Source: Listeria monocytogenes
Lineage (GTDB): Bacteria > Bacillota > Bacilli > Lactobacillales > Listeriaceae
DNA: 64,000 bases
NCBI RefSeq assembly: GCF_900187225.1
Contig: NZ_LT906436.1
Location: forward strand, 2,667,501-2,731,500
Direction of reading: 5' to 3'
The translations under genes and the position numbers were made by a program. Under the pieces are notes generated by a model. It was given only the letters and a program-made list of their open reading frames with translations, was not told the DNA's origin and did not search any database. Below are positions 22,344-22,825 of this stretch, piece after piece. The stretch's first letter is position 1. Every line of letters begins with the position of its first letter.

Positions 22344-22424
22344 CTTGCCTCCAATTCTTTCTAGGCAAGCTGAGAATAACGTTTATGTGCGCCAGAGATG
22401 AAGGTTAGTCACTCTTGCAGCTTG
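22344..22424 (-). promoter_or_regulatory. Alternative RNA pairings controlling the mgtA ribosome binding site
   Basis: On the minus strand CTTGCCT (22369-22363) pairs perfectly with AGGCAAG (22350-22344), which contains part of the GGAGGC ribosome binding site of mgtA. A second segment, CAAGCTG at 22424-22418 inside the leader ORF, pairs perfectly with CAGCTTG at 22372-22366 and so competes for the same bases. One fold hides the ribosome binding site and the other frees it. Each pairing is 7 bp. Confidence 0.6.
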
Positions 22425-22478
22425 ATTACTATAATACGAGTCCGGTTCTTCTACTTCCTCTCCCTGATGGTGGTCCAT
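22383..22478 (-). CDS. Acidic leader peptide upstream of mgtA (31 aa)
   Basis: A 31-codon ORF lies between the riboswitch terminator and mgtA with a strong AAAGGAGATGA ribosome binding site. Residues 6-14 read GEEVEEPDS, an acidic and proline-containing run, and the peptide ends in LHLWRT. Acidic/proline runs early in a peptide are known to destabilise translating ribosomes at low magnesium, the basis of the enterobacterial mgtL leader. Codons 19-21 overlap a segment that can pair with the anti-ribosome-binding-site strand. A role as a translational magnesium sensor is inferred. Confidence 0.65.
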   Translation of the reverse strand: MDHHQGEEVEEPDSYYSNQAARVTNLHLWRT

Positions 22479-22512
22479 TGCCTTCATCTCCTTTCGAATT
22501 TTATCTAAGCTT

Positions 22513-22549
22513 AATTATCTGAAAAAAAGATTTTAATTCCCAGATAATT
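22513..22549 (-). other. Hairpin between riboswitch terminator and leader ORF
   Basis: AATTATCTG (22513-22521) and CAGATAATT (22541-22549) form a perfect 9-bp stem with a loop containing a T run. No U tract follows it on the minus strand, so it is more likely a structural or processing element than a terminator. Confidence 0.5.
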
Positions 22550-22566
22550 ATTTTCATAATAAACAT

Positions 22567-22600
22567 GAAAAAAGTCCTTACCAAAACCTCGGCAAGGACC
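22567..22600 (-). terminator. Riboswitch expression-platform terminator
   Basis: The minus strand reads GTCCTTGCC ... GGTAAGGAC, a 9-bp stem with one mismatch, followed by TTTTTT. It sits just downstream of the M-box aptamer and would stop transcription before mgtA when magnesium is bound. Confidence 0.85.
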
Positions 22601-22634
22601 CCTGAATTTATACGCATACTAAAACAGACTCCCC

Positions 22635-22798
22635 TCGCTAAAGTTTTGGCACTATGCAACGTAAAGAATACTCTTAGCCACATTATGGAAAGCCTTAATC
22701 CGACAATCCCTGTTCTACCCATTGGCGTCTTTGGACATTTTTGGGCAGTGGCCTGTGTTTGCATAGGAGCCTCACCTAACAGGCAAAACTACATATTT
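22635..22798 (-). ncRNA. M-box (ykoK) magnesium riboswitch aptamer
   Basis: The minus strand contains the hallmark M-box blocks in order: GTTAGGTGAGGCTCCTATG, ACAGGCCACTGCCC, AATGTCCAAAGACGCCAATG, GGTAGAACAGGGATTGTCGG, ATTAAGGCTTT and ACGTTGCATAGTGCC. It precedes a magnesium P-type ATPase and an intrinsic terminator, the expected context for a magnesium OFF switch acting by transcription termination. The exact ends are approximate. Confidence 0.96.
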
Positions 22799-22825
22799 AT
22801 TATCGCTCTAATCGTCTACGAGTTT

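Follow-up and report, generated by a model that had tools for sequence, protein, structure and literature searches.

A candidate translation-abortion switch between the M-box riboswitch and mgtA in Listeria monocytogenes and other Gram-positive bacteria

In Gram-positive translational attenuators of the erm type, a ribosome stalled on a leader exchanges helices 1:2 and 3:4 of the transcript for helix 2:3 and thereby frees the downstream Shine-Dalgarno sequence (SD); the inducing event is antibiotic-dependent arrest and not the reading of acidic codons. In Salmonella, the acidic 8-codon open reading frame (ORF) mgtQ frees the SD of mgtB through the alternative 1:2 plus 3:4 versus 2:3, and removal of its start codon or of its acidic codons lowers the level of MgtB (PMC8092293). 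Leaders of this class are recognised, among other things, by acidic codons and L31 setting transporter translation in vivo. When Mg2+ is low, the acidic and proline codons of mgtL in Escherichia coli and Salmonella destabilise the ribosome and switch mgtA by way of Rho (PMC11282234, PMC11552253). The present study concerns a short acidic ORF located between an M-box Mg2+ riboswitch and mgtA in Listeria monocytogenes. The window, i.e. the whole stretch of DNA analysed (contig NZ_LT906436.1), covers 64 kb of a 2.86-Mb single-contig genome and carries both the element and mgtA on its minus strand. The evidence, which is comparative and computed throughout, indicates that this leader is probably an mgtQ/mgtL-like translation-abortion switch, i.e. 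a second, ribosome-based Mg2+ sensor in series with the M-box.

The M-box matches Rfam model RF00380 over its full length (153.3 bits against a gathering score of 44, E 4.8e-35, model positions 1-169) and is the only copy in this genome. Directly 3' of it lies an intrinsic terminator, the sole terminator-like site detected in the region, followed by a 31-codon ORF with a strong SD and an early GEEVEEPDS motif (Table 1). All these parts had been recognized in an initial annotation of the DNA, and the Rfam match, the detection of the terminator and the sequence itself bear it out. The ATG at 22478 was chosen as the leader start in preference to an in-frame upstream ATG (22487), because AAAGGAG is then 9 nt away and does not touch the start codon.

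Conservation of the leader ORF in Listeriaceae

Analysis of 36 Listeriaceae genomes revealed the M-box and mgtA in the same 25 genomes and neither of them in the other 11. Each of the 24 readable M-box-mgtA leaders contained an ORF preceded by an SD and with an acidic motif near its start, the motif taking the form EEPDS, ESDPDSS/DMDPDS or EDDPAEPES, and GDDPKS in a Brochothrix-like genus; the motifs of the other clades are equivalent to that of the window and comparably placed. The AAGGAG of the leader SD is unchanged in 11 of 11 distinct relatives. In Listeria sensu stricto, the variable sites within codons 2-18 are distributed 6/5/11 over codon positions 1/2/3, and codons 8-14 show exclusively E/D, V/L or synonymous changes. 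Indels flank the ORF in the 13 loci of this group, with none inside it.

The L. rustica-type clade retains the acidic motif near the N terminus, but its peptides vary freely in their C-terminal half. According to the initial annotation, frame-breaking changes together with loss of both pairings in relatives would have counted against the switch; the frameshifts that we observed, in two species of this clade, affect the C-terminal part only, and the RNA pairing segments are retained. This suggests that the signal carried by the peptide is the motif itself and that the 3' part of the ORF acts as RNA. The narrower claim that the ORF is conserved as an element acting in cis on mgtA is, in our view, more probable than the full mechanism proposed below.

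Alternative RNA helices and the opening of the mgtA SD

Four strands were distinguished in the leader transcript: the leader SD and start region (1), the 3' part of the ORF (2), the anti-SD strand (3) and the mgtA SD (4). Strands 2b and 3 form an ON stem of 15 pairs with a two-base bulge (CAAGCUG-ca-AGAGUGAC / GUUAUUCU-CAGCUUG), with a predicted energy of -14.3 kcal/mol, versus -7.9 kcal/mol for the anti-SD (OFF) hairpin 3:4. The pairing between CAAGCTG (from 22424, codons 19-21) and CAGCTTG (22372-22366) proposed in the initial annotation does exist, as the outer part of this stem, although it accounts for only 7 of the 15 pairs. The competing hairpin CTTGCCT/AGGCAAG over the mgtA SD, proposed with it, proved correct, with 7 pairs kept in 11 sequences. 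A further helix, 1:2a, covers the leader's own SD with 11 bp (duplex -17.2, z about -2.5 versus shuffles). The 18 pairs of the OFF state (11 of 1:2a and 7 of 3:4) are all retained in the 11 distinct sequences from Listeria sensu stricto; for the ON stem, the share of paired cells across these relatives is 99.4%.

The other two Listeria clades display the same topology in unrelated sequence (GAGAUAAAUGCC/GGCAUUUAUCU over the leader start, AAGAGGCA/UGCCUCUU as the ON stem), i.e. the same helix set is kept in three clades. Compensatory double changes were found in two clades: one has G-C to A-U in 1:2 and A-U to G-C in 3:4, and the second has C-G to U-A in the ON stem (2:3). When the RNA was cut off just 5' of the mgtA SD, the ON stem was the predicted fold in 9 of the 9 Listeria loci folded, and it can therefore form before the rival hairpin exists. 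The leader-SD helix was also considered as a universal feature and rejected as such: its median p was below 0.05 in just 14 of 32 clades, and it is absent from the short MEHPSP type of leader.

The switch was examined by computing what it costs in free energy to open the mgtA SD when the RNA is removed up to the front of a moving ribosome. This cost is high with a free leader, drops to low values while the front is at about codons 10-18, and is high once more towards the end of the ORF. In locus L017 it amounts to 6.8, 0.1 and 6.8 kcal/mol (free leader, front at codon 16 and front at codon 25 of 28, respectively), and in the window to 8.0, 5.6 and 7.6 kcal/mol (free leader, front past the acidic codons and front near the ORF end). 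The segment from codon 15 to the mgtA SD was shuffled 60 times per locus in 19 loci (L022-L025 and Brochothrix were left out). The score was reached by none of the 60 shuffles in the L015/L017/L018 clade, by 0-1 in three tested loci of the L. rustica-type clade, and by 0-6 in Listeria sensu stricto (3 of 60 for the window). The 51 loci from outside Listeriaceae scored 2.14 on average, versus -0.61 (sd 1.51) for 408 shuffles, and a score of at least 2 was obtained for 49% of the loci versus 2% of the shuffles. The position of the motif correlates with the point at which the SD closes again (Spearman 0.46, p 0.02, 25 clades); this correlation is confounded with ORF length (0.52) and was therefore treated as weak.

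The switch logic of the initial annotation, in which early ribosome loss opens the mgtA SD and read-through closes it, is supported by the conservation of codons and structure across three Listeria clades that differ in sequence, and by the same energy pattern in other genera; helix 1:2a had been missed.

Distribution among Gram-positive bacteria and genomic surroundings

The upstream regions of about 90 Lactobacillales mgtA genes (91 in the blind count) were read, and a blind rule was applied that accepts an ORF of 8-60 codons if it is preceded by an SD and has an acidic/proline cluster close to its start. Such an ORF was detected in 70 of the 91 mgtA loci and in at least one locus of 25 of the 31 genus-level groups. 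Where an M-box precedes mgtA, it was found in 33 of 38 loci, compared with 0 of 19 where the M-box precedes another gene (Fisher p 7e-11, a value that is indicative only, since the species are related and not independent). These counts are conservative, because some leaders seen by eye were missed, e.g. MSGDDPKS of Brochothrix. Typical leaders start with MEDPSQ, MEHPSP, MDDSSQ, MDHEDSRPK or MQIDDHPEPH, and the Enterobacteria included in the same search gave MgtL-like starts such as MDPDPTPLPRWRPPSFR, a useful positive control.

The M-box and the acidic leader are separable elements. Two loci (L107, L109) have the leader but lack an M-box within the stretch examined, and in eight others (L130, L131, L133, L138, L139, L143, L166, L167) the M-box lies 1.5-2.1 kb from mgtA, with the acidic leader still adjoining the gene. 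In some of the latter, a GNAT-like acetyltransferase gene (identified by eye) is placed between the M-box and mgtA. A different wiring was seen in seven loci examined, in which the leader overlaps the mgtA start and the act of reading through would hide the mgtA SD; overlaps of 32-74 bases occur in L112, L116, L117, L121, L150, L087, L089 and L091. Locus L145 (G171:C16:177405-178355) carries a single mgtA preceded by two tandem M-boxes, matched at 177527-177699 and 177862-178040, and a short acidic ORF, MDTDDPAPDRKSWTFR, begins between them and runs into the second.

Outside Lactobacillales, an M-box with an acidic leader occurs in Brevibacillus, and an M-box with a candidate leader in Clostridium ihumii and Tissierella. 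In Brevibacillus and its relatives (L168-L173) a leader of 45-51 codons is followed by a conserved GTGTATTTAAGTATG segment, an intrinsic terminator and mgtA. The energy pattern was not seen in the switch test of Brevibacillus, which has the intrinsic terminator between leader and mgtA instead; this arrangement is likely a transcription-attenuation version of the element.

The recurrence of the M-box with an acidic leader in many Gram-positive bacteria suggests that Mg2+ is sensed twice, by RNA and by the cohesion of the ribosome. On balance, we lean slightly towards the broader view that Gram-positive bacteria widely control mgtA by two serial Mg2+ measurements on one transcript (free Mg2+ by the M-box during transcription, ribosome cohesion by the leader during translation), the output of the leader having been built anew on several occasions from unrelated RNA, be it as SD masking, as an overlap with the start of mgtA or as an intrinsic terminator. 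The initial annotation had treated the combination as undescribed in Firmicutes, and we found no description of an acidic leader with an M-box in Firmicutes in the full text of open-access papers; the acidic ORFs spread across Lactobacillales, with or without an M-box, had escaped it. As far as this literature goes, an mgtQ/mgtL-like switch would be new to Firmicutes.

Table 1. Features of the M-box-mgtA region (positions within the window)
Feature	Position	Strand	Basis or remark
M-box (ykoK-type) Mg2+ riboswitch aptamer	22790-22624	-	Rfam RF00380, 153.3 bits
Intrinsic terminator, M-box expression platform	22603-22568	-	stem GTCCTTGCC/GGTAAGGAC + T run; terminator-like site 22603-22570
Leader SD AAAGGAG	22494-22488	-	sequence
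Strand 1, leader SD/start region GGAGAUGAAGG	22491-22481	-	pairs with strand 2a
Leader ORF, 31 codons + stop, MDHHQGEEVEEPDSYYSNQAARVTNLHLWRT	22478-22383	-	ATG 22478, stop 22385-22383
Acidic/proline motif GEEVEEPDS, codons 6-14	22463-22437	-	proposed ribosome-destabilising sensor
Strand 2b CAAGCTGCAAGAGTGAC	22424-22408	-	pairs with strand 3 (ON stem)
Strand 2a CCTTCATCTCT (CCUUCAUCUCU), leader codons 25-29	22404-22394	-	pairs with strand 1
Strand 3 GTTATTCTCAGCTTG	22380-22366	-	last bases overlap anti-SD CTTGCCT (22369-22363)
OFF hairpin CTTGCCT/AGGCAAG over mgtA SD	22369-22344	-	-7.9 kcal/mol
AGGCAAG	22350-22344	-	strand 4 side, mgtA SD
mgtA SD GGAGG	22352-22348	-	sequence
mgtA, Mg2+-translocating P-type ATPase, 856 aa	22339-19769	-	TIGR01524, 1605 bits, cut-off 610.75

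A second stem, AATTATCTG...CAGATAATT (22549-22513, minus strand), is located between the M-box terminator and the leader; it occurs throughout Listeria sensu stricto and was not seen in the other clades. Two rodA/ftsW-like (SEDS) genes (19768-17532, minus strand) directly follow mgtA with no gap and in the same direction, and are therefore probably part of the M-box operon. In other genera, an M-box stands directly 5' of a rodA/ftsW-like gene (L041, L048, L050, L051, L055) or of a PAP2-like gene (L035, L042), the gene names having been given by eye. M-boxes before SEDS and PAP2-like genes hint that cell-wall synthesis and Mg2+ are connected.

Proposed mechanism, alternatives and known systems

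According to the mechanism that we propose, the M-box would set whether the transcript gets past the terminator, and ribosomes would then load on the leader ORF. At low Mg2+ the acidic/proline stretch would destabilise them, so that they leave at about codons 8-14; a Mg2+-dependent drop-off of Gram-positive ribosomes is assumed here. Newly initiating ribosomes would keep the 5' part of the ORF occupied and leave its 3' part free, strand 2b could pair with strand 3, and with the anti-SD captured mgtA would be translated. At adequate Mg2+, ribosomes traversing the 3' part would disrupt the ON stem, the anti-SD hairpin would shut the mgtA SD, and strand 2a could reseal the leader SD.

Several observations weigh against this mechanism. 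The amplitude of the switch is modest in the window's own clade (about 2 kcal/mol), and the energy pattern was not seen in Brochothrix. Codon-level conservation, a check suggested in the initial annotation, emerged from the Listeriaceae alignments; covariation, suggested with it, is thin in Listeria sensu stricto because the sequences are too similar, and with so little divergence it was dropped as support. The folding energy of the whole leader, which is ordinary compared with shuffles (z -0.32), was dropped as well. Five loci (L122, L124, L135, L180, L181; Rfam-confirmed M-box in L180 only) have an M-box and mgtA with no leader. Strands 2a and 2b lie next to each other in the window's clade instead of being one shared strand, and helices 1:2a and 2b:3 might therefore coexist as a pseudoknot, on which folding restricted to nested structures cannot judge; for this reason the effect of losing leader translation is the least certain prediction. 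Destabilisation by acidic nascent chains has been reported for E. coli and Salmonella, and no report was found for Listeria ribosomes. The case for this locus is built from computed and comparative data; with all this taken into account, we still consider the mechanism the probable one.

Of the alternatives, the one that survives best, although it is unlikely, is that the leader is a true attenuator responding to a signal other than Mg2+, with ribosomes stalling at acidic/proline codons for want of EF-P, an ABC-F factor or charged tRNA, or because translation itself is limiting. EttA does act on the acidic mgtL codons in E. coli, and the Salmonella mgtP leader responds to charged tRNA-Pro. However, by the blind rule the acidic ORF precedes mgtA but none of the other M-box targets, and many leaders (MDDSSQ, MEDSSHG) have one or no proline near the start, so proline supply is not the common signal. 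We regard as very improbable that the M-box is the sole regulator and that the ORF and hairpins are passive or due to chance: the unexceptional stability of the overall fold and the loci with no leader would fit, whereas codon-level conservation, the retained helices and the association with mgtA would not. Least probable of all is a functional small protein, e.g. an MgtA partner, whose position is incidental; its C-terminal QAARVTNLHLWRT is strongly conserved in Listeria sensu stricto, but the conserved 3' codons are those pairing with the leader SD and strand 3, relatives carry C-terminal frameshifts, lengths range from 12 to about 50 codons with no common sequence beyond the acidic motif, and the peptide had no match in NCBIfam or Pfam.

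If the translation-abortion mechanism is true, Mg2+ sensing via ribosome destabilisation would be a general solution and not an enterobacterial speciality; it would occur together with the M-box in Listeria, in many further genera of Lactobacillales and in Brevibacillus. The many natural variants could be used to ask which nascent-chain motifs destabilise Gram-positive ribosomes, and why one gene bears two Mg2+ switches would become testable.

As regards the erm-type attenuators, no resistance gene lies downstream of the Listeria leader; the gene there is mgtA. The upstream element is a full member of the M-box family (RF00380) with its terminator, and no second translated sensor accompanying a ykoK-type M-box is described in the literature examined. 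In Mycobacterium tuberculosis a small ORF, rv1805A, likewise lies between an M-box and the next gene; there, however, the M-box itself controls translation of this upstream ORF, and no acidic attenuator is described (PMC12810186).

MgtL, the precedent named in the initial annotation, remains apt as regards the acidic/proline leader (EPDP motif in MgtL) placed before mgtA, the mutually exclusive RNA states, and the OFF structure that seals the leader's own SD too. The sequences are unrelated, with no resemblance by eye between the Listeria leader and MgtL (MEPDPTPLP...) beyond the tripeptide EPD, and the outputs differ: mgtL acts through Rho-dependent termination, and the Listeria leader is predicted to mask an SD; Brevibacillus has an intrinsic terminator in this place, and in further loci the leader overlaps the start of mgtA. 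The closer precedent is mgtQ-mgtB (PMC8092293), since its output, too, is the SD of a Mg2+ transporter gene. Both systems have a short SD-led ORF with early acidic codons 5' of a Mg2+ P-type ATPase gene, both set 1:2 plus 3:4 against 2:3 with 3:4 masking the transporter SD, and in both the ON stem is stronger than the SD hairpin (-16.4 versus -12.26 for mgtQ, -14.3 versus -7.9 in Listeria). Unlike mgtQ, the Listeria leader has 31 codons and separate strands 2a and 2b, follows an M-box terminator and belongs to a Gram-positive bacterium. The Listeria element combines the logic of mgtQ with the position of mgtL.
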